Shown here one piece after another: positions 838-11,162 of a stretch of DNA of 64,000 bases (within the stretch, counting starts at the first letter, position 1; each line of letters begins with the position of its first letter). Location of the stretch: the NCBI GenBank assembly GCA_031291575.1, contig JARLIT010000052.1, forward strand, positions 1 to 64,000, written 5' to 3'. A program made the translations under genes and the position numbers. The notes under the pieces were generated by a model. That model saw nothing but the letters and a program-made list of their open reading frames with translations, was not told the origin of the DNA and searched no databases. This DNA comes from Ancalomicrobiaceae bacterium. Lineage in GTDB: Bacteria; Pseudomonadota; Alphaproteobacteria; Rhizobiales; Ancalomicrobiaceae.

Positions 838-1590
838 TTAGCGACCGAGATAGACTTCGATCACCTTCGGATCATTGGCGACGTGGTCGATCGAACCTTC
901 CGACAGGACGGATCCCTCGTGCAGCACGGTCACCTTGACGTCGAGTTCGCGCACGAAGGCCATGTCGTGTTCGACGACCACCACCGACTTGCCGGACTTG
1001 TGGATGTGGCGCAGCAGCGCCGCCGTCTCCATCGTCTCTGCGTCGGTCATGCCAGCCACCGGCTCGTCGACCAGAAGAAGCTTCGGCTCCTGGGCGAGGA
1101 GCATGCCGATCTCCAGCCACTGCTTCTGGCCGTGGGAGAGGTTGCGGGCGAGGTCCTTGGCGCGGTGGCTCAGCTTGATGGTCGACAGGAGTTCGTCGAT
1201 ACGGTTGTCCTCGTCCTTGGTATTGCGGTGGAACAGCGTCCAGAACGGCGTACGGTCCGCCTTCAGCGCCAGGAGAAGGTTGTCGCGGACCGTGTGGCTT
1301 TCGAACACCGTCGGCTTCTGGAATTTGCGTCCGATGCCGAGTTCCGCGATCTCCGCCTCGTCGAGGCGGGTCAGGTCGGTTGAGCCTTCGAACAGCACTT
1401 CGCCCTCGTCGGGCCGCGTCTTGCCGGTGATGATGTCCATCATCGTCGTCTTTCCGGCGCCGTTGGGCCCGATGATGGCCCGCATCTCGCCGGGGCCGAT
1501 CACCATGGAAAGACCGCGCAGCGCCTTGTAGCCGTCGAAGGAGACGGCGACGCCGTCGAGATAGAGGATGGAATTCTTGGCGATGTCCAT
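838..1590 (-). CDS. urtD: Urea ABC transporter ATPase UrtD
   Basis: First ATPase (LivG-like) of the urea importer, about 250 residues. It starts MDIAKNSILYLDG. It carries Walker A (GPNGAGKTT), an LSHGQKQWLEIG signature and Walker B (LLLVDEPVAGM) with the following H-switch (VVVVEHDM). A longer upstream open frame exists, but it overlaps urtC and lacks family similarity, so the ATG at 1590 is preferred. The gene follows urtC after 4 bases, so the two are probably translationally coupled. The LivG insertion typical of branched-chain and urea ATPases (KFQKPTVFESHTV) is present, which supports the HAAT-family call. Confidence 0.95.
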   Translation of the reverse strand: MDIAKNSILYLDGVAVSFDGYKALRGLSMVIGPGEMRAIIGPNGAGKTTMMDIITGKTRPDEGEVLFEGSTDLTRLDEAEIAELGIGRKFQKPTVFESHTVRDNLLLALKADRTPFWTLFHRNTKDEDNRIDELLSTIKLSHRAKDLARNLSHGQKQWLEIGMLLAQEPKLLLVDEPVAGMTDAETMETAALLRHIHKSGKSVVVVEHDMAFVRELDVKVTVLHEGSVLSEGSIDHVANDPKVIEVYLGR

Positions 1591-1594
1591 GGCC

Positions 1595-2731
1595 TCACTC
1601 CGCCGGTTCGGGAGATGTCGGAACGACCCGCGACGGGCGGTTGCCGAAGGAGAACAGGCCGCCGAGCGTGCCGACGATGCCCTTCGGCAAGAGGAGAGGG
1701 CCGGCGACGAACAGGGCGCCGAGCGCGAACAGCCAGAACTCCGGCAGGACGCCGGTGAACCAGGTTTTGCCCCAGTTGACCGCAACCGCACCGATGATCG
1801 CCCCGACGAGCGTACCGCGGCCACCGACCGCGACCCAGATGACCGCCTCGATCGAGTTGGCGGGCGAGAATTCCGACGGGTTGATGATGCCGACCTGCGG
1901 CACGTACAGCGCGCCGGCGACGCCGGCCATGCAGGCCGACACGGTGAAGACGACCGTTTTGTATTCGGCGACACGGTAGCCGATGAAGCGGGTGCGGCTC
2001 TCGGCGTCGCGGATGGCGATCAGCACCTTGCCGAGCTTGGAATTGACGATCGAGGAGGCGAGCCACAGGCCGACGGCGAGGAAGCCGACGGTCAGCGCGA
2101 ACAACACGCGCCGGGTCGAATCCGCCTGGATGTTGTAGCCGACGACATCCTTGAAATCGGTCAGGCCGTTGTTGCCGCCGAAGCCCATGTCGTTGCGGAA
2201 GAAGGCGAGGAGGAGCGCATAGGTCATCGCCTGGGTGATGATCGACAGATAGACGCCGGTGACGCGGCTGCGAAACGCGAACCAGCCGAACACGAAGGCG
2301 AGGAGCCCCGGGATGAGCAGCACCATCAGCATCGCGTAGGGGAAGTGGTCGAAGAATACCCAAGTGAACGGCAGTTCCTTCCAGTTGAGGAACACCATGA
2401 AGTCGGGAAGGATCGGGTTGGCGTAGACGCCGCGCGTGCCGATCTGCCGCATCAGATACATGCCCATGGCGTAGCCGCCGAGCGCGAAGAACGCCCCATG
2501 TCCGAGCGAGAGAATGCCGCAGTAGCCCCACACCAAGTCAAGGGCGACGGCGAGGAGCGCGTAGGCCGCATACTTGCCGAACAGCAGCATATTGCCGGTC
2601 GATACGTGCAGCGGGCTGGCGTCGGCGAGGAACGCGTTGGAATAGGTCACGCCGATGCCGATCAGGGCGAGGACGAGGATGGCGATGCCCGTCTTGCGAT
2701 CGAGGCCGCCGAGGAGGAATGAGGTGATCAT
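1595..2731 (-). CDS. urtC: Urea ABC transporter permease UrtC
   Basis: LivM-type inner-membrane permease of the urea importer, 378 residues, with about ten hydrophobic segments. It starts MITSFLLGGLDRK; the ATG overlaps the urtB stop (ATGA), indicating translational coupling. The LivM-family stretches GYCGILSLGHGAFFALGG and VFTVSACMAGVAGALY are present. The C-terminus (GLFSFGNRPSR) is slightly longer than in amino-acid LivM proteins, as is usual for UrtC. It pairs with UrtB to form the membrane channel. Confidence 0.95.
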   Translation of the reverse strand: MITSFLLGGLDRKTGIAILVLALIGIGVTYSNAFLADASPLHVSTGNMLLFGKYAAYALLAVALDLVWGYCGILSLGHGAFFALGGYAMGMYLMRQIGTRGVYANPILPDFMVFLNWKELPFTWVFFDHFPYAMLMVLLIPGLLAFVFGWFAFRSRVTGVYLSIITQAMTYALLLAFFRNDMGFGGNNGLTDFKDVVGYNIQADSTRRVLFALTVGFLAVGLWLASSIVNSKLGKVLIAIRDAESRTRFIGYRVAEYKTVVFTVSACMAGVAGALYVPQVGIINPSEFSPANSIEAVIWVAVGGRGTLVGAIIGAVAVNWGKTWFTGVLPEFWLFALGALFVAGPLLLPKGIVGTLGGLFSFGNRPSRVVPTSPEPAE

Positions 2732-4344
2732 GCTTCCACCGCCCGGCCCTTGAGGGCGAACAGGCCCCTCGGACGCTTCTGGATGAACAGGATGATGGCC
2801 ACGAGCACGAGGATCTTGCCCAAGACTGCGCCGGCCACCGGTTCGAGGAACTTGTTGACGATGCCGAGCGTCATGGCGCCGACGAGCGTGCCCCACAGAT
2901 TGCCGACACCGCCGAAGACGACCACCATGAAGCTATCGATGATGTAGCCCTGGCCGAGGTTGGGGCTGACGTTGTCGATCTGGCTCAAGGCCACGCCGGC
3001 GATCCCGGCGATGCCGCAACCGAGCCCGAAGGTTAAGGCGTCGATCCAAGGTGTCGGGATGCCCATCGCCGAGGCCATCGAGCGGTTCTGTGTCACCGCT
3101 CGCATCTGCAGGCCCAAGGGCGTCTTCTTCAGGATCAGGATCAGCCCGGCGAAGACGACGAGGGCGAAGACGATGATCCACATCCGCCCCCAGGTGATCG
3201 ACAATTGCCCGAGCTGGAACGAGCCGGACATCCAGGAAGGCGAGCCGACCTCGCGGTTGTTGGCGCCGAACGTCGTCCTGACCAGTTGCTGCAGGGCCAG
3301 CGAAATGCCCCATGTGGCGAGAAGCGTGTCGAGCGGTCGTCCGTACAGCCAGCGGATGACCGTACGCTCGATGGCGACGCCGACGAGGCCGGACACGATG
3401 AAGGCGAGCGGGATGGCGATCGGCAGGGAGAGGTCGAACAGGCTGGGGAAGTGATTGCGGATCACCTCCTGCACCATGAAGGTGACGTAGGCGCCGAGCA
3501 TCACCATCTCGCCGTGCGCCATGTTGATGATGCCCATCACGCCGAAGGTGATGGCGAGGCCGATGGCGGCCAACAGCAGCACCGAGCCGAGCGACAACCC
3601 GTACCAGGCGTTCTGCGCGGTTGACCACAGGGCGAGATTGTTCTCGATCGTCTTGGCCGAGGCTTGCGCGGTGTTGACGACGGTCTTCGGCGCGTCGGCT
3701 GGGAGCGAGCGCAGCAGCGCCACGGCATCCTGCGTGCCGGCGACCTGGATGGCCTGCGCGGCGACGACGCGGTCGGCCTCGGCTGCATCGGACTTGAACA
3801 GGACGATCGCGGCGCGGGCAATCTTCAACGCGGTCGCGACTTCCGGGACGGTTTCCTTGGCGAGCGATGCATCGATCGCCGGCAACGCATTTTCGTCGCG
3901 CGACTTGAACACCGCTTCCGCCGCCTCTCGGCGCTTCTGCGGATCGGGGTTGAACAGTGATAAGGCGCCGAGTGCTGCCTGCACGACGCCGCGCACCCGG
4001 TTGTTCTGACGGACGTCGCTGACATCGGCCGGCGGCGTGGCAACCGCATCGCCGGTCGCGGCATCGACGAGGCCGGCGCCTGTGTCGATGTAGACCTTCT
4101 TGGCGCTGTCGGAGAATTGCAGCTTGCCGTCGGAGAGGGCCTGCACGATGGCGAGTGCCCGCGGATGGCCCGATGTCGACAATTGCCCGATGGCCTCGAT
4201 CGTATCGGAATAGCCGTCGGTGGTGAGCAGCTGGATGGTGCCGTCGATATCGGCGGCCAGCACCGGCTGAACGATGGTGACAGCGACGATGGCGACGATC
4301 GTCAGCGATAGGCGGCGGATCGCGGCGGCAATCGACTTCAGCAT
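2728..4344 (-). CDS. urtB: Urea ABC transporter permease UrtB
   Basis: LivH-type permease, 538 residues. It has the hallmark of UrtB: an N-terminal signal/TM segment (residues about 12-30) followed by a roughly 200-residue periplasmic helical extension rich in Ala, and only then the LivH permease core (from about residue 245, LGSVLLLAAIGLAITFGVMG). Amino-acid LivH proteins lack this extension, so it helps to separate a urea transporter from a generic HAAT system. The gene follows urtA by about 250 bases, a gap that carries a REP palindrome pair. Its stop overlaps the urtC start. Confidence 0.95.
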   Translation of the reverse strand: MLKSIAAAIRRLSLTIVAIVAVTIVQPVLAADIDGTIQLLTTDGYSDTIEAIGQLSTSGHPRALAIVQALSDGKLQFSDSAKKVYIDTGAGLVDAATGDAVATPPADVSDVRQNNRVRGVVQAALGALSLFNPDPQKRREAAEAVFKSRDENALPAIDASLAKETVPEVATALKIARAAIVLFKSDAAEADRVVAAQAIQVAGTQDAVALLRSLPADAPKTVVNTAQASAKTIENNLALWSTAQNAWYGLSLGSVLLLAAIGLAITFGVMGIINMAHGEMVMLGAYVTFMVQEVIRNHFPSLFDLSLPIAIPLAFIVSGLVGVAIERTVIRWLYGRPLDTLLATWGISLALQQLVRTTFGANNREVGSPSWMSGSFQLGQLSITWGRMWIIVFALVVFAGLILILKKTPLGLQMRAVTQNRSMASAMGIPTPWIDALTFGLGCGIAGIAGVALSQIDNVSPNLGQGYIIDSFMVVVFGGVGNLWGTLVGAMTLGIVNKFLEPVAGAVLGKILVLVAIILFIQKRPRGLFALKGRAVEA

Positions 4345-4591: not shown

Positions 4592-5884
4592 TCAGCCGCC
4601 GCACTTCTTGGTGACGGAGTTGTAGTTGCCGCACTTCAAGGTAACCCAATCGGCGACGAGGTCCTTGGAGCCTTCGAGGTAGGCGCTCCAGGCGGCGCCG
4701 GGGACAAGGTCCTTGGTCTTCCACACCACGTCGAACTGGCCGTCGGCCTTGATCTCGCCGATGAACACCGGCTTGGTGATGTGGTGGTTCGGCAGGACCT
4801 TGGCGATGCCGCCGGTCAGGTTCGGCGTCTCGATGCCCGGGAGGGTGTCGATGACCTTGTCCGGATCGGTGGTGCCGGCCTTTTCGACCGCCTTGACCCA
4901 GGCGCTGAAGCCGATGACCGAAGCTTCCATCGGGTCGTTGGTCGTGCGCTTCGGGTTCTTGGTGTACTCCTGCCACTTCTTGATGAACTCGGAGTTGGCC
5001 GGGTTCTTGATCGATTCGAAGTAGTTCCAGGCCGCCAGATGGCCGACGAGCGGCTTGGCATCCAGACCGGCGAGTTCTTCTTCGCCGACCGAGAACGCCA
5101 CGACCGGGATATCGGTCGCCTTGATGCCCTGGTTGCCGAGTTCCTTATAGAAGGGAACGTTGGCATCGCCGTTGATGGTGGAGACGACGGCGGTCTTCTT
5201 GCCGGCCGAGCCGAATTTCTTGATGTCGGCGACGATCGACTGCCAGTCGGAATGACCGAATGGCGTGTAGTTGATCATGATGTCCTCGGGGGCAACGCCC
5301 TTCGCCTTCAGATAGGCCTCGAGGATCTTGTTGGTGGTGCGCGGGTAGACGTAGTCGGTGCCGGCCAGCACCCAACGCTTCACTTCGCCGCCGTCCTTCG
5401 ACATCAGGTAGTCGACGGCCGGGATCGCCTGCTGGTTCGGCGCGGCGCCGGTGTAGAACACGTTGCGCTCGCTCTCCTCGCCCTCGTACTGCACGGGGTA
5501 GAACAGGATCGAGTTGAGTTCCTTGAACACCGGCAGCACGGACTTGCGCGACACCGAGGTCCAGCAGCCGAACACCACGGCGACCTTGTCCTTCTGGATC
5601 AGCTCGCGTGCCTTTTCAGCAAACAGCGGCCAGTTCGATGCCGGATCGACGACGACCGCCTCGAGCTTCTTGCCGAGAACGCCGCCCTTCTTGTTCTGCT
5701 CATCGATCATGAACAGAATCGTGTCCTTCAGCGTCGTCTCCGAGATCGCCATCGTGCCCGACAGCGAATGCAGGACGCCGACTTTGATCGTATCTTCCGC
5801 GTTCGCCACGGACACCGTCATCGCGGCGCCCGCGAGCGCAGCCGCCACGGCAGCGCTTGAGGCAATGGATTTCAACCAGGACAT
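4592..5884 (-). CDS. urtA: Urea ABC transporter substrate-binding protein UrtA
   Basis: Periplasmic urea receptor, 430 residues, the first gene of urtABCDE. An N-terminal Sec signal peptide is visible (MSWLKSIASSA..., cleavage near VANA-EDTIKVG). It belongs to the type I periplasmic binding fold of the LivJ/AmiC class. Diagnostic stretches include VGVLHSLSGTMAISE, FGCWTSVSRKSVLP and FYPVQYEGEE. The ATG at 5884 is chosen over an in-frame TTG 15 bases upstream because a strong ribosome-binding site (GGGGGAG) stands about 7 bases before it and overlaps that TTG. The C-terminus ends CGNYNSVTKKCGG. The UrtA length and motifs are close to the rhizobial and cyanobacterial proteins. Confidence 0.96.
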   Translation of the reverse strand: MSWLKSIASSAAVAAALAGAAMTVSVANAEDTIKVGVLHSLSGTMAISETTLKDTILFMIDEQNKKGGVLGKKLEAVVVDPASNWPLFAEKARELIQKDKVAVVFGCWTSVSRKSVLPVFKELNSILFYPVQYEGEESERNVFYTGAAPNQQAIPAVDYLMSKDGGEVKRWVLAGTDYVYPRTTNKILEAYLKAKGVAPEDIMINYTPFGHSDWQSIVADIKKFGSAGKKTAVVSTINGDANVPFYKELGNQGIKATDIPVVAFSVGEEELAGLDAKPLVGHLAAWNYFESIKNPANSEFIKKWQEYTKNPKRTTNDPMEASVIGFSAWVKAVEKAGTTDPDKVIDTLPGIETPNLTGGIAKVLPNHHITKPVFIGEIKADGQFDVVWKTKDLVPGAAWSAYLEGSKDLVADWVTLKCGNYNSVTKKCGG

Positions 5885-5950: not shown

Positions 5951-6511
5951 TCACGGCAATGCACCAAAAGCCCCATACGTCGATTGACGCAGTTTCGCGG
6001 GATGAGAGAAATTGATGCGAGGGGTGTTCACTGCGAGGGCGGAGCGATGAAGGAATAGGCAGGGAAGGTGCTCCGCGCCGTGGCGTCCGTACCGGCGGAA
6101 GCCCACCTTGCCCGCATGACGTGCCCCCCAGGGCCGCCGGCTGTCGTGGCAGAGGCGAGTGGGTCCTGGCTTTCGCCAGGATGACAACCGGGGCCGAGAC
6201 TGCGCTCTTGTCGATGGTTCGAACCAGTTTGCTGCGAGATCGACCCAGTCCGGGTTCGACGCCTCGATCAGTTCGACTTTCCAAGCCCGCCGCCAATTCT
6301 TAAGTGCCTTTTCCCGGGCTATCGCCTCTTCGATTAACGTGAAACCCTCAATGCGGACGAGACTATGCACCTTGTATCGCGAGGTGAACGACTTGGAGGT
6401 CTGTTGTCGGTGCTCCCAAATGCGACGCTCAAGATTGTTCGTCACCCCGATGTGGAGTGTGCCATTCTTGCGTGAGGCGAGGATGTAGACGAAGTAATTG
6501 GGATCGGACAT
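5951..6511 (-). CDS. GIY-YIG nuclease-like protein with read-through tail
   Basis: The N-terminal 95 or so residues form a compact GIY-YIG endonuclease domain of the small UPF0213/YhbQ-like group: FVYILASRKNGTLHIGV (the GIY..YIG equivalent is YIL..HIG), the conserved Arg in NNLERRIWEH, and AREKALKNWRRAWK. It starts MSDPNYFVYILAS at 6511. Family members normally stop near DWVDLAANW. Here the frame continues about 90 more residues straight through a REP palindrome, so the tail is probably not a functional domain and the natural stop has been lost or displaced. A second REP palindrome lies in inverted orientation just upstream. Catalytic competence is uncertain because the second motif reads HIG rather than YIG. 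Confidence 0.7.
   Translation of the reverse strand: MSDPNYFVYILASRKNGTLHIGVTNNLERRIWEHRQQTSKSFTSRYKVHSLVRIEGFTLIEEAIAREKALKNWRRAWKVELIEASNPDWVDLAANWFEPSTRAQSRPRLSSWRKPGPTRLCHDSRRPWGARHAGKVGFRRYGRHGAEHLPCLFLHRSALAVNTPRINFSHPAKLRQSTYGAFGALP
6160..6185. repeat. REP palindrome (family A), downstream flank of the GIY-YIG gene
   Basis: Hairpin-forming element gggtCCTGGCtttcGCCAGGatgaca, the same family as the elements at 6557, 11186, 27596 and elsewhere. It lies inside the extended reading frame of the GIY-YIG gene, after its conserved domain. Confidence 0.85.
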
Positions 6512-6556
6512 AGGCTGATCGCGATGCTTCGGCAACTTGCAATATATATCACAGGT

Positions 6557-6583
6557 TGTCATTCCGGCGAAAGCCGGGATCCA
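6557..6583. repeat. REP palindrome (family A), upstream flank of the GIY-YIG gene
   Basis: The element reads tgtcattCCGGCgaaaGCCGGgatcca, inverted relative to the copy at 6160-6185, so the nuclease domain is bracketed by oppositely oriented palindromes. The rest of 6512-6775 shows no recognisable gene. Confidence 0.85.
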
Positions 6584-6775
6584 CTCGCAGTGCAACGCTG
6601 CTTGCCTTTGCGACGGATTGCCGGTCGCGCGTCAGGCCCAATTTCCCTGTCCCCAACGGAAGGCGATCTTCACAACGCCGCAAGCACCCCGCCGCTCCCG
6701 ATTGGAACGCTCCTTGCGTGCTGAGGGAGAATCCCGGCCCGACCCCGGCCTGCATCCAATACCCCTGGGAGCCCC

Positions 6776-9700
6776 ATGGCCTCGCGTCAGCGCATCCTGC
6801 CGATCCGCCGGGAGTACAATCGGTTCGTCGCCAATCAGACGCTCGAAGACTATGCGCTCAGGTTCACAGCGAAATCAGCGCGGCGCTGGTCGCCGCTGCG
6901 CATCGCCCAGACCGCGATCGGCGCGATTTCGTTCCTGGCGCTGGAAGCCATCGGCGGGGCGATCACCCTGGCGCATGGGTTCGTCAATGCCGCCGCGGCC
7001 ATTGTCGTCGTCTCCCTGATCATGCTTGTTACCGGCCTGCCGATCGCCCGCTACGCGGCGCGCTACGGCGTCGACATCGACCTCCTTACCCGCGGCGCCG
7101 GCTTCGGCTACATCGGCTCGACGGTGACCTCGCTCATCTACGCGAGCTTCACCTTCATCCTGTTCGCCATCGAAGCCTCGATCATGTCGTCGGCCTTGTC
7201 GCTCGCCTTCGGCGTCCCCCTGTGGATCTCCTACATCCTCTCCTCGCTCGCCGTCATTCCGCTGGTCATCTACGGCATCACCGCCATCAGCCGCTTCCAG
7301 TTGTGGACGCAGCCATTCTGGATCTTCTTGAACATCGCGCCGATCGTCGTCATCGTCTGGTACGACTTCCCGCAGGTCACCGCCTGGCAGCAGTTCGGCG
7401 GGCTCAACACCGGCGGCCAGCCGGGAACGTTGTGGGAGAGTTTCGACATCGTCCGCTTCGGGCTGGCCTCGTCGGTGATCCTGTCGTTGATCGCCCAGAT
7501 CGGCGAGCAGGTCGATTTCCTGCGCTTCCTGCCCGCCGAGGGCGCCAAGGCGGGCGATCGCAACTGGTTCACCGCGCTGTTCCTGGCCGGCCCCGGCTGG
7601 GTGGTCTTAGGCGCGCCGAAACTCTTCGCCGGATCGCTCCTCGCCGTCCTGGCGCTGCGCTACGGCGTTCCGGCAGAACATGCCGGCGAGCCCGCCTACA
7701 TGTACGACGTGGCGTTCCAATACATGCTGTCGCCGAAGCTGGCGGTCGTCCTGACGGCAGCCTTCGTCGTCGTCTCGCAATTGAAGATCAACGTCATGAA
7801 CGCCTATGCCGGCTCGCTGGCGTGGTCGAATTTCTTCTCCCGGCTCACCCACAACCACCCCGGCCGCGTCGTCTGGCTCATCTTCAACGTGGCGATCGCG
7901 CTCCTCCTGATGGAGCTCGGCATCTACCGCGCGCTGGAAAAGACGCTCGGCCTGTTCTCGATCCTGGCGGTGTCGTGGCTCGGGGCGATCGTCGCCGACC
8001 TCGCCATCAACAAGCGGCTGGGCTTGGCGCCGCCCGGCATCGAGTTCAAGCGCGCCCATCTCTACGACGTCAATCCGGTCGGCGTCGGCGCCATGATCGG
8101 CGCGGCGACGCTCGGCATCGCCGCCGCCGCCGGTCAGTTTGGCATTCTGGCCGCGGCCTTCGCGCCCTTCGTGTCGCTGGCAACCGCGCTTGTCCTGGCC
8201 CCGCTGATCGCCTGGGGGACGCAAGGACGCTACTACCTCGCGCGCAAGCCGCGTGCCAGCTGGGCCAAGCTCACCACCATCCAATGCCGCATCTGCGAGC
8301 ACGACTTCGAGCCGGAGGACTCGGCCTTCTGTCCGGCCTACGGCGCGCCGATTTGTTCCTTGTGCTGCTCGCTCGATGCCCGCTGCGGCGACCTATGCAA
8401 GCCGCACGCCCGCGCCTCCGAACAGGCCCGCGTGGCGCTTTCCGCCATCATGCCGAAATTCCTGCGCCACCGCGTCAGCCAGCGGCTTGTCGAGTTCCTC
8501 GGCATGCTGATGCTGCTGACCGCCGTCATCAGCCTGGTGCTTCTCGTCATCCATTTCCAGGTCGGTGCGAGCGAGGACGGCGTGGTCTCGCGCGCCCTTT
8601 GGGCGGCCTTCTTCGTCGCGCTGATCGTTGCCGGCGTCATCGCCTGGTTCTTCGTCCTCGCCCACGAGAGCCGGCGCGTGGCGGAGGAGGAGAGCCGGCG
8701 GCAGACGGCGCTGCTGATGGCCGAGATCAAGGCGCACGAGAAGACCGACGCTGCGCTGCAGAAAGCCAAGGAGGCGGCGGAGGCGGCCAACTTCGCCAAA
8801 TCGCGCTATCTGGTCGGCCTCAGCCACGAACTCCGGACGCCACTCAACGCCGTCATGGGCTACGCGCAGGTGATGGAGCGCGATCCCGACTTGCCCGAGC
8901 CCCGTCGCGACAAGGCGGTGAAGGTGATCCGCCGTTCGGCCGAACACCTGTCAGGCCTGATCGACGGGCTCCTCGACATTTCCAAGATCGAAGCCGGGCG
9001 GCTGCAGCTGGCGCGTAATCATGTCCGGCTCTCGGAATTCCTCGCCCAGATCGTCGACATGTTTCGCTTCCAGGCGGAGGCCAAGGGCTTGCGCTTCCAC
9101 TTCCACCGGCCCGAGCGGCTGCCGGACGTGGTGGCGACGGACGAGAAGCGCTTGCGGCAGATCCTCGTCAACCTGATTTCCAACGCCATCAAGTTCACCT
9201 CGGAAGGCGAGGTCGAACTGACCATGACGTTGCGCAACCAGGTCGCGGCCTTCACCATCCGCGACACCGGGCCCGGCATCCCGCACGACGAACTGCAAAG
9301 CATTTTCGAGCCGTTCGGGCGCGGACGCAGCGCCTCGGGTCAGCCGGGACTGGGCCTTGGGCTGACGATCACCAAGATGCTGGCAACGCTGATGGGCGGC
9401 GACATTTCGGTATCGAGCCAGGAAGGCGAGGGGAGTTCGTTCCGCGTGCGCCTAATGCTCGGCACCGTCACCTCGCCCGAGGCGGCGCCGCTGGGGCCCT
9501 TGATGATCCGCGGCTATTCGGGACGGCGGCGCACCGTGATGGTGGTCGACGACAACGCCGAACACCGCGACCTGATCGCCGAGATCCTGGAGCCCCTGGG
9601 CTTCATCGTGCTGTCGGCCGAGGATGCGCCCTCCTGCCTGACGCTGGCCGCGGAAATCCCGCCGGACCTGTTCCTCCTCGACATTTCCATGCCGGGATTA

Positions 9701-10258
9701 AGCGGCTGGGAACTGGCGCGCGAACTCAGGAAGGCCGGTTTCGCCCAGGCTCGCATCATCATCCTCTCCGCCAACATCGGCGAGACGCGGCCGCCGGAAG
9801 TCGACGACCCCCAGCACGACGACGCCATTTCGAAGCCGTTCGATCTGAGGACGCTGGTGGAACGGCTTGGCACGCATCTGGGACTCGAGTGGCTCGACAA
9901 GCCACCCACCGAGGTCGCCGCTGCGGCGGATGTGCTTGACCGGCCGGCGGAACACGCGGCCGAACGCATCGAGCCGTCACTTGCCGCTCTCCCCGATAGG
10001 CCGCCGCTCGATCCGGCTGACATCCACGAGTTAATCGAGTTCGCCCGGATCGGCTACCGGCGCGGCATCGAGAAGAAGCTGGCCGAAATCGCTGCCGGTC
10101 GTGGTTCCGGCGCTGCGCTCGAACAGCTCGGCGACCACCTCGCCCGTTTCGACATGGGGGGGCTGATCGCCGCTCTCGAGGCTATGGCGGAACTCGGTGC
10201 CGAACGCCCTGTGGCCGCGGAGCGGCGGTCAGCGATGGGGGCCGACGTCGATGCGTGA
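6776..10258 (+). CDS. NCS1 transporter-histidine kinase-receiver hybrid sensor
   Basis: A 1160-residue membrane sensor. Residues about 20-480 resemble an NCS1 nucleobase/hydantoin/allantoin:cation symporter with about 12 hydrophobic segments. Residues 504-541 hold a cluster of eight Cys (C504, C507, C519, C527, C530, C531, C537, C541), probably metal-binding. Two further TM segments (about 575-630) and a short coiled coil follow. Then comes a histidine kinase with H-box SHELRTPLNAVMGY (His684), an N-box (NLISNAIKF) and a GLGLGLTI G-box. A CheY-like receiver has its phosphoacceptor at about Asp969 (LLDISMPG). A helical C-terminus (about 1045-1140) may be a phosphotransfer or docking region. 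The gene overlaps the next regulator by 8 bases and is divergent from urtABCDE. By analogy with transporter-fused kinases such as CbrA, the carrier domain probably senses or transports the signal. A urea- or purine-derived ligand is inference from context. Confidence 0.85.
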   Translation: MASRQRILPIRREYNRFVANQTLEDYALRFTAKSARRWSPLRIAQTAIGAISFLALEAIGGAITLAHGFVNAAAAIVVVSLIMLVTGLPIARYAARYGVDIDLLTRGAGFGYIGSTVTSLIYASFTFILFAIEASIMSSALSLAFGVPLWISYILSSLAVIPLVIYGITAISRFQLWTQPFWIFLNIAPIVVIVWYDFPQVTAWQQFGGLNTGGQPGTLWESFDIVRFGLASSVILSLIAQIGEQVDFLRFLPAEGAKAGDRNWFTALFLAGPGWVVLGAPKLFAGSLLAVLALRYGVPAEHAGEPAYMYDVAFQYMLSPKLAVVLTAAFVVVSQLKINVMNAYAGSLAWSNFFSRLTHNHPGRVVWLIFNVAIALLLMELGIYRALEKTLGLFSILAVSWLGAIVADLAINKRLGLAPPGIEFKRAHLYDVNPVGVGAMIGAATLGIAAAAGQFGILAAAFAPFVSLATALVLAPLIAWGTQGRYYLARKPRASWAKLTTIQCRICEHDFEPEDSAFCPAYGAPICSLCCSLDARCGDLCKPHARASEQARVALSAIMPKFLRHRVSQRLVEFLGMLMLLTAVISLVLLVIHFQVGASEDGVVSRALWAAFFVALIVAGVIAWFFVLAHESRRVAEEESRRQTALLMAEIKAHEKTDAALQKAKEAAEAANFAKSRYLVGLSHELRTPLNAVMGYAQVMERDPDLPEPRRDKAVKVIRRSAEHLSGLIDGLLDISKIEAGRLQLARNHVRLSEFLAQIVDMFRFQAEAKGLRFHFHRPERLPDVVATDEKRLRQILVNLISNAIKFTSEGEVELTMTLRNQVAAFTIRDTGPGIPHDELQSIFEPFGRGRSASGQPGLGLGLTITKMLATLMGGDISVSSQEGEGSSFRVRLMLGTVTSPEAAPLGPLMIRGYSGRRRTVMVVDDNAEHRDLIAEILEPLGFIVLSAEDAPSCLTLAAEIPPDLFLLDISMPGLSGWELARELRKAGFAQARIIILSANIGETRPPEVDDPQHDDAISKPFDLRTLVERLGTHLGLEWLDKPPTEVAAAADVLDRPAEHAAERIEPSLAALPDRPPLDPADIHELIEFARIGYRRGIEKKLAEIAAGRGSGAALEQLGDHLARFDMGGLIAALEAMAELGAERPVAAERRSAMGADVDA

Positions 10259-11162
10259 TGCGACGAGCCGCGACATCATCCTGGTCGTCGACGACAGCCC
10301 CGAGACGCTCGGCTTCCTGACCGAGGCGCTCGAGGCGACCGGCGCCATGGTGCTGGTCGCCGTCTCAGGTCAGGAGGCGCTCGACATCGCCCATCGCATC
10401 ACCCCCGATGTCGTGCTCCTGGATGCCGTCATGCCCGGCATCGACGGCTTCGAAACATGCCGGCGGATGAAAGCGTCGAGCGCCACCGCCCACGTGCCGA
10501 TCATCTTCATGACCGGTCTGACCGAGACCGAAGATATCGTGCGCGGCCTTGCTGCCGGCGGCGTCGACTACGTGACGAAGCCGATCGTCATCGATGAACT
10601 CATTGCCCGTATCCGCGTGCATCTGACCAATGCACGGCGCGAACTCTCCGCGCGTCTCGCTCTCGACAGCGCCGGCCGCTATCTGATGGCGGTCGACCGC
10701 ATCGGCCATATCCTGTGGGCGACGCCGCAGGCGGTCAGGCTGTTGCAGGAGGTAATGCCGGACGTCGGGGCGGGGCAGGCGCTGCCCGAGCCGGCGCGCT
10801 CCTCGGTCGCCGCCGGGCATCTGTCTGGCATGATCGTTCTCGGCGAAGTCGGCAGCCGCCGTCTGGCCCTGTCGGCCTTGGGCCGCGCCGGCGACGACGA
10901 GTTCCTGTTCCGCCTGATGAGCGACGATGTCGGCGGCGAGGAGGCGGTGTTGAGGCGGCGCTTCGCCGTGACCTCGCGCGAGGCGGAAGTCCTGGTGTGG
11001 ATCGCGCGCGGCAAATCCAACAAGGACATCGGCGACATCCTCGGCATGAGCCCGCGCACGGTGAACAAGCATCTGGAAACGATCTTCGCCAAATTGGGGG
11101 TGGAGAATCGCGCCTCCGCCGCGGTGCTGGCACTCCGGACCATTAATGAGACGGCGGGGTGA
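10251..11162 (+). CDS. Response regulator, receiver + LuxR-type HTH
   Basis: A 303-residue DNA-binding response regulator. The N-terminal receiver has acidic pocket VVDDS, phosphoacceptor Asp58 (LLDAVMPG) and a conserved Lys in VTKPI. A linker of about 90 residues (about 130-220) may be a degenerate PAS-like region. The C-terminal LuxR/GerE HTH reads TSREAEVLVWIARGKSNKD...GMSPRTVNKHLETI. The ATG at 10251 lies inside the end of the hybrid kinase gene (8-base overlap), so the two are translationally coupled and almost certainly cognate. Likely targets are the divergent urt operon and amide or purine genes nearby, but no binding site could be assigned. Confidence 0.9.
   Translation: MRDATSRDIILVVDDSPETLGFLTEALEATGAMVLVAVSGQEALDIAHRITPDVVLLDAVMPGIDGFETCRRMKASSATAHVPIIFMTGLTETEDIVRGLAAGGVDYVTKPIVIDELIARIRVHLTNARRELSARLALDSAGRYLMAVDRIGHILWATPQAVRLLQEVMPDVGAGQALPEPARSSVAAGHLSGMIVLGEVGSRRLALSALGRAGDDEFLFRLMSDDVGGEEAVLRRRFAVTSREAEVLVWIARGKSNKDIGDILGMSPRTVNKHLETIFAKLGVENRASAAVLALRTINETAG

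Follow-up and report, generated by a model that had tools for sequence, protein, structure and literature searches.

What does a hybrid histidine kinase sense when its N-terminal part looks like a membrane transporter and its gene is divergent from a urea importer operon? This question is raised by a locus in the 64,000-nucleotide stretch of DNA analyzed here (hereafter, the window), in which such a kinase is followed by a response regulator. Fusions of SLC5 transporters to kinases are known, namely CbrA, CrbS and RpuS (PMC13022988). An NCS1-kinase fusion has not been described in the literature searched, beyond a passing mention of the Sinorhizobium meliloti protein SMb20609, and no bacterial kinase devoted to urea is described in the open-access literature searched. 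In this work, the anatomy and fold of the kinase, its gene linkage, its relation to free-standing permeases and the recurrence of an operator before urea and amide genes have been computed.

A hybrid kinase and its partner regulator

The features of the locus are collected in Table 1. The Pfam scan delineates HisKA at kinase residues 675-741, HATPase_c at 788-895 and Response_reg at 921-1031, and a position check placed His684, Asp925, Asp969 and Lys1020 in the kinase and Asp58, Thr88 and Lys110 in the regulator. With a HisKA domain bearing the histidine, a HATPase_c domain and a receiver bearing the aspartate, the protein is a hybrid HisKA kinase, and the REC and GerE domains detected in the downstream protein make it a regulator of the NarL/FixJ (LuxR) type. 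An earlier note on this DNA had reported an overlapping pair of ORFs, a kinase with His684 and receiver Asp969, a regulator with Asp58 and a cluster of eight cysteines; the numbered residues are found exactly at the positions given there, and the eight cysteines and both ORFs are present. The most likely start of the regulator is the ATG at 10251, which gives the 8-base overlap with the kinase and the Asp58 numbering. Because this architecture recurs in dozens of genomes, it is far beyond chance.

The C-terminal helical domain was considered as an HPt and rejected for want of a conserved histidine: after residue 1035 no position carries His in 40% of the 61 homologues, and the scan of the window proteins gave no Pfam match to HPt in this tail.

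Table 1. Genes, domains and predicted operator of the urt-kinase locus in the window
Feature	Coordinates	Strand	Basis
urtD ATPase (start uncertain)	838..1974	-	PF00005, PF12399
urtC permease (start uncertain)	1595..2896	-	PF02653
urtB permease	2728..4344	-	conserved position and similarity across loci; annotated UrtB in related L118 locus
urtA, urea ABC substrate-binding protein	4592..5884 (ORF open to 5899)	-	PF13433; TIGR03407, 552 bits (cut-off 492.75)
predicted operator TACGTCGATTGACGCA, deviating from TACGY-N6-RCGTA by one mismatch	5976..5991	.	precedes the ATG of urtA by 92 bp
hybrid histidine kinase with NCS1-like sensor, 1160 aa	6776..10258	+	ORF, Pfam, alignment, model
NCS1-fold (12-TM) domain, residues 22-483	6839..8224	+	AlphaFold model; CodB Z 36.6 over 397 residues; transitive homology via L103 (passes PF02133)
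eight-Cys cluster, residues 504-541 (CxxC...C...CxxCC...C...C)	8285..8398	+	8/8 Cys invariant, 68 homologues
two extra TM helices and signaling helix, residues 569-659	8480..8752	+	model secondary structure, hydrophobic sequence
HisKA/DHp, phospho-acceptor His684	8798..8998	+	PF00512, position
HATPase_c	9137..9460	+	PF02518
receiver, Asp969	9536..9868	+	PF00072, position
C-terminal helical domain, without conserved His	10013..10237	+	homologue alignment
LuxR/NarL-type response regulator, REC and GerE, Asp58	10251..11162	+	Pfam; adjoins kinase 3' end in nearly all homologues

The sensor domain has an NCS1-like fold

Kinase residues 1-640 have no convincing match to any Pfam model, the Pfam profile PF02133 (Transp_cyt_pur) gave no match above cut-off in the window kinase or in 67 homologues, and the sensor domain returned no NCS1 match when used as the query of Pfam and PDB sequence searches. 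Residues 1-660 were modeled with AlphaFold from an alignment of 68 sequences, and the model is confident (mean pLDDT 88.5, pTM 0.88). The top Foldseek matches of the sensor model are CodB and Mhp1, with structural Z scores of 36.6 (397 residues) and 31.2, compared to 25.4 for the best non-NCS1 structure; amino-acid/Na+ symporters score 25.4 or lower, and SLC5 transporters about 22-24, a rank by which SLC5 membership was rejected. Since sequence searches gave no NCS1 match, homology to NCS1 rests on the fold and on an intermediate, L103, a free-standing permease of another genome that matches the kinase sensor domain with an E value of 1e-30 and passes PF02133 with 36.4 bits. In the model, residues 22-483 adopt an NCS1-like fold, a term preferred to NCS1 membership because PF02133 is unmatched. 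The NCS1-type carrier of about 12 TM segments proposed in the earlier note has thus been recovered by structure prediction, with CodB and Mhp1 as the best matches, and not by the NCS1 Pfam profile.

The cysteine module and the linker

Between the sensor and the kinase core, Cys 504, 507, 519, 527, 530, 531, 537 and 541 are invariant in 68 homologues, and all strong matches to this module in 398 genomes fall within the transporter-fused kinase family. The cluster is likely a zinc-binding module, the metal being putative. In the model, it is followed by a TM helix at 569-595, a second TM helix from residue 598 and a continuous helix that runs into HisKA; the two TM helices between the Cys cluster and HisKA are absent from the earlier note. 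The free-standing permeases most closely related to the sensor end in half of the Cys motif (CxxC...CSLC), which has been lost in Arthrobacter. No part of the linker is more invariant than the Cys cluster, which could itself sense the general nitrogen state or the membrane or redox state, with the gene linkage described below reflecting a shared nitrogen regulon. We regard this as quite improbable, since the linkage is restricted to urea and amide genes of several unrelated protein families, and the half motif of the free permeases, or its loss, argues that the cluster is not a separate sensor.

Linkage to urea and amide genes

The kinase-regulator pair is common in Pseudomonadota. In a phylum sample of 398 genomes, the sensor domain was matched in 60, and removal of seven or eight weak free-standing permeases from the count leaves the kinase in 52-53; in the class sample, 27 of 385 genomes match the sensor domain. 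The partner regulator adjoins the kinase almost everywhere, and receiver-less members of the family (~885 aa) occur with AmiS/UreI and FmdA.

As the earlier note had proposed, the window kinase is divergent from a urea importer operon, the UrtA of which passes TIGR03407, and nearly all homologous kinases are likewise divergent from a UrtA-type ABC operon. Among the 63 kinase loci with a long 5' flank (three loci of free-standing permeases were left out), urea or amide genes, that is, urt, urease, FmdD-like ABC/formamidase or AmiS/UreI, lie beside the kinase in 57, which bears out the adjacency to nitrogen genes; the other six have no recognized urea/amide enzyme or ABC gene, and one of these faces an NCS1 permease. 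One class of loci contains true urt genes, with UrtA 70-90% identical to that of the window and often with ureD/ureC, and another contains an ABC importer, the UrtA-like protein of which is 37-42% identical, together with the formamidase FmdA and sometimes an amidase; in a further clade, the kinase faces ureABC. The genome to which the window belongs has two kinase copies, the window copy at urt and a paralogue on contig C95 that faces a formamide cluster composed of a UrtA-like ABC importer and the FmdA formamidase. The UrtA-like protein of this amide-linked paralogue also passes TIGR03407 (537.8 bits), so the model does not separate urea-type from amide-type binding proteins. The kinase is absent from 64 of the 88 urtA-bearing genomes of the class sample, and urt thus does not require it.

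Among the ligands suggested in the earlier note, these neighborhoods favor urea, along with short-chain amides, and not hydantoin or allantoin. Hydantoin, allantoin or a nucleobase as the main ligand was set aside because no such pathway gene was recognized in the examined loci and an aromatic pair of the substrate site is absent (see below).

Several loci depart from the common arrangement. In three loci of one genus (L064, L073 and L074), the kinase has an exact operator ~160 bp upstream and no urea/amide genes nearby. On S. meliloti pSymB (L122), the kinase pair adjoins dctABD, and urtA, 8 kb away, keeps its own operator.

A conserved operator upstream of the importer

An unbiased dyad search found TACGT-N6-ACGTA in 11 of 16 urea-type divergent intergenic regions; for the amide-type regions it was ATACG-N8-CGTAT, in 16 of 30, and shuffles gave at most 2 in either case. 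Of the 60 distinct divergent intergenic regions, 45 contain an exact match to the combined pattern TACGY-N6-RCGTA, compared to 0.045 expected from shuffling and none for the reversed pattern; the other 15 have no exact site. The window site deviates by one mismatch; such sites are expected by chance about twice per 64 kb and ~0.03 times in the urtA-kinase intergenic region of the window. The distance from the operator to the start of the importer hardly changes between regions (58-107 bp in most), whereas that to the kinase varies; this points to the importer promoter as the target. The operator is absent from the earlier note, and its conservation upstream of urtA supports the control of urt that the note had claimed.

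An 18-bp stringent form of the motif has 12 sites in 9 of 12 kinase genomes, 11 of these 12 sites at the kinase locus, and three sites across twelve kinase-less genomes. The genome of the window (5.58 Mb) contains three exact sites, one of them in the intergenic region of the paralogue; those in C204 and C376 (near carD/rpoH) look like chance occurrences and were rejected as operators, as was a second site in G225. Sites in trans occur in S. meliloti before a urtA gene that is 8 kb away from the kinase; in other species, at 6-10 kb from the kinase, before urtA or before an operon leading through a porin gene into urtA; and in Methylovirgula before an aliphatic amidase gene. In Niveispirillum (L067 1720-7202), an exact operator lies 70 bp before the allophanate hydrolase-urea carboxylase genes, directly 3' of the regulator gene. 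When all urt genomes were compared for sites up to 700 bp from urtA, kinase and kinase-less genomes did not differ, likely because urtA is often preceded by a porin gene and urt need not be a target of amide-type kinases. When 1.5 kb upstream of urtA is included, sites are found in 5 of 16 kinase genomes versus 0 of 14 kinase-less genomes, a comparison partly confounded by kinase adjacency, so that the trans examples carry the weight.

Additional ORFs were noticed around these sites. A porin-like gene lies between operator and urtA in L067 (11684-12853), and a secreted-protein-like ORF occupies the same place in L055 (1159-2526); the former may be an amide/urea porin like FmdC, and the latter possibly also a porin like FmdC. 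In the window, a GIY-YIG-type ORF (MSDPNYFVYILASRKNGTLHIGVTNN...) at 5951-6595 on the minus strand, absent from the earlier note, stands between urtA and the kinase gene and extends their intergenic region to 876 bp; it has palindromic repeats that translate as WIPAFAGMT/VIPAKAGIH, and the predicted operator overlaps its 3' end.

Sister permeases and the binding pocket

The nearest free-standing relatives of the sensor are annotated as allantoin or cytosine permeases, and the closest of them form the sister clade of all kinases in the tree. The Acinetobacter permease adjoins ureEFG-D-ABC, that of Klebsiella lies directly 3' of a urease operon, that of Moraxella adjoins fmdA and that of Arthrobacter an aliphatic amidase gene; given these neighbors, the most likely origin of the sensor domain is a branch of urea/amide permeases. 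A single Methylovirgula cluster comprises kinase, regulator, permease, formamidase and amidase. In Acinetobacter baumannii (L127 3379-9611), the kinase-regulator pair is divergent from an NCS1 permease of the sister clade, with an exact operator in between, and the sensor is a paralogue of the transporter probably under its control. This arrangement resembles the UhpB/UhpC-UhpT system, in which a transporter paralogue senses for the genes of its own transporter; UhpC, however, is a separate MFS protein, whereas sensor and kinase are one chain in the NCS1-kinase family. Two NCS1 proteins annotated as cytosine/allantoin permeases beside urease operons (L123 6956-8563 and L120 5663-7270) are candidate urea permeases.

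The substrate and sodium sites of NCS1 proteins, including an aromatic pair of TM3 and TM6 that sandwiches a ring substrate, have been assigned previously (PMC9379551). In the sequence alignment, Glu133 of the kinase corresponds to Gln121 of Mhp1, and Lys337/Ile338 replace the threonines of the Na2 sodium site. As a lead, under a CodB numbering that we assume, Thr126 presumably corresponds to CodB Gln105, Phe/Leu129 to the ring-stacking Trp108 and Asn339 of TM8 to Asn280. The aromatic pair is missing from the family consensus: position 129 is Phe or Leu, not Trp, and no aromatic residue is found at 233 or 238, the TM6 register being uncertain and the aromatic absent in either register. Judging from the alignment, this loss would fit a small non-ring ligand.

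The NCS1 domain could still be a working permease, with the kinase reading transport flux and not static occupancy, a possibility to which we give some credence while leaning against it. The pocket residues of TM3, TM6 and TM8 match those of free-standing permeases, and the precedent of CbrA, which retains histidine transport (PMC7096432; PMC13022988), points the same way; against this, every kinase has Glu57 in TM1 where the transporters have Phe, and Ks-Amt5, the Amt-histidine kinase precedent, has lost transport (PMC5764959).

The pocket bears also on ligand identity. It is nearly identical between urea-linked and amide-linked kinases, which interleave on the kinase tree with at least five switches of linkage, and the binding proteins of both classes pass the UrtA model; the sensor might accordingly answer to short-chain amides (formamide, acetamide) or broader carboxamides, and urea would then be a secondary ligand, or one among several, even for the window copy. 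This seems unlikely to us, since the window copy groups with the clade of true urtA at 70-90% identity, often with ureDC, and the formamide cluster of its genome has a paralogue of its own. Furthermore, all 34 amide-linked kinases have Phe at position 129; of the 26 urea-linked ones, 18, which belong to two separate clades, have Leu there, and this Leu state, shared by the window kinase, occurs only in urea-linked clades. The repeated change of linkage on one scaffold provides a natural series for locating specificity residues.

Proposed mechanism

We consider it probable that the pair is a urea-responsive two-component system, in which an NCS1-fold transceptor kinase acts through a LuxR-type regulator that activates urt. 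Urea would bind at the transporter substrate site of the window sensor, and amides would be the ligands of the paralogue in the same genome. The resulting conformational change would reach the DHp helices by way of the Cys (probably zinc) module and the extra TM hairpin, and set autophosphorylation at His684. The phosphoryl group would then pass to Asp58 of the regulator, directly or under modulation by Asp969 of the fused receiver, which, as no HPt is present, is assigned the role of a modulator or sink. The regulator is predicted to bind the TACGY-N6-RCGTA dyad, which precedes urtA by ~60-110 bp, and to activate the import of urea and, in certain species, also the degradation of urea or amides; activation, as opposed to repression, of urt is inferred from operator position and precedent. 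On a broader proposal our judgment is evenly balanced: NCS1-fold urea/carboxamide sensor kinases may be a new transceptor class, sister to an unrecognized NCS1 branch of bacterial urea/short-chain-amide permeases, and a single operator code may govern the genes of urea import, urea carboxylase and amidase throughout Pseudomonadota.

Relation to known systems

Like the window kinase, CbrA, CrbS and RpuS consist of a LeuT-fold transporter fused N-terminally to a kinase that controls nutrient uptake or use, and CrbS is also a hybrid kinase. They differ in having an SLC5 fold and a four-helix STAC linker, whereas the window kinase has an NCS1 fold (Z 36.6 versus about 24), an eight-Cys linker, an extra TM hairpin and urea/amide targets; the Pfam scan of its linker gave no recognizable STAC match, the presence of a STAC model in the library being unchecked. 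Ks-Amt5 is also a nitrogen-compound transporter turned into a sensor by fusion to a HisKA kinase, but with an Amt/Rh fold, a trimeric state and ammonium as the ligand, and without a receiver or a Cys linker. CodB and Mhp1 share the fold over residues 22-483; unlike them, the window kinase fails to match PF02133, has Phe/Leu in place of the TM3 Trp, no TM6 aromatic and Lys337/Ile338 at Na2, and is fused to a kinase. NCS1 thereby becomes the third transporter scaffold in kinase fusions, after SLC5 and Amt, and the dyad operator TACGY-N6-RCGTA is new here. The family supplies candidates for the ligand, the regulator, the operator and the regulon together, which makes the idea directly testable, and points to the probable substrate of the NCS1 branch annotated as allantoin/cytosine permeases beside urease operons.

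Two previously reported clusters can be connected to this family. The kinase and regulator SMb20609/SMb20610 of S. meliloti pSymB, functionally uncharacterized in 2025, share a proteomic module with UreA and UreB (PMC12542648), and are very probably orthologous to the window pair, having been matched to the pSymB copy by position and not through the sequence of that strain. Among the plasmid records, 530 match the sensor domain, 342 of these from Klebsiella. The Klebsiella cluster with the kinase and regulator resembles the plasmid-borne urea transport cluster of CG307, and the available part of the account of the latter (PMC13060141) does not mention the kinase or the regulator; as far as this part goes, the analysis reveals an overlooked regulator in a cluster of the CG307 type. 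On the Klebsiella pneumoniae plasmid pTHO-017-1 (L119), an amide/urea ABC cluster with amiF carries both the kinase and the regulator.
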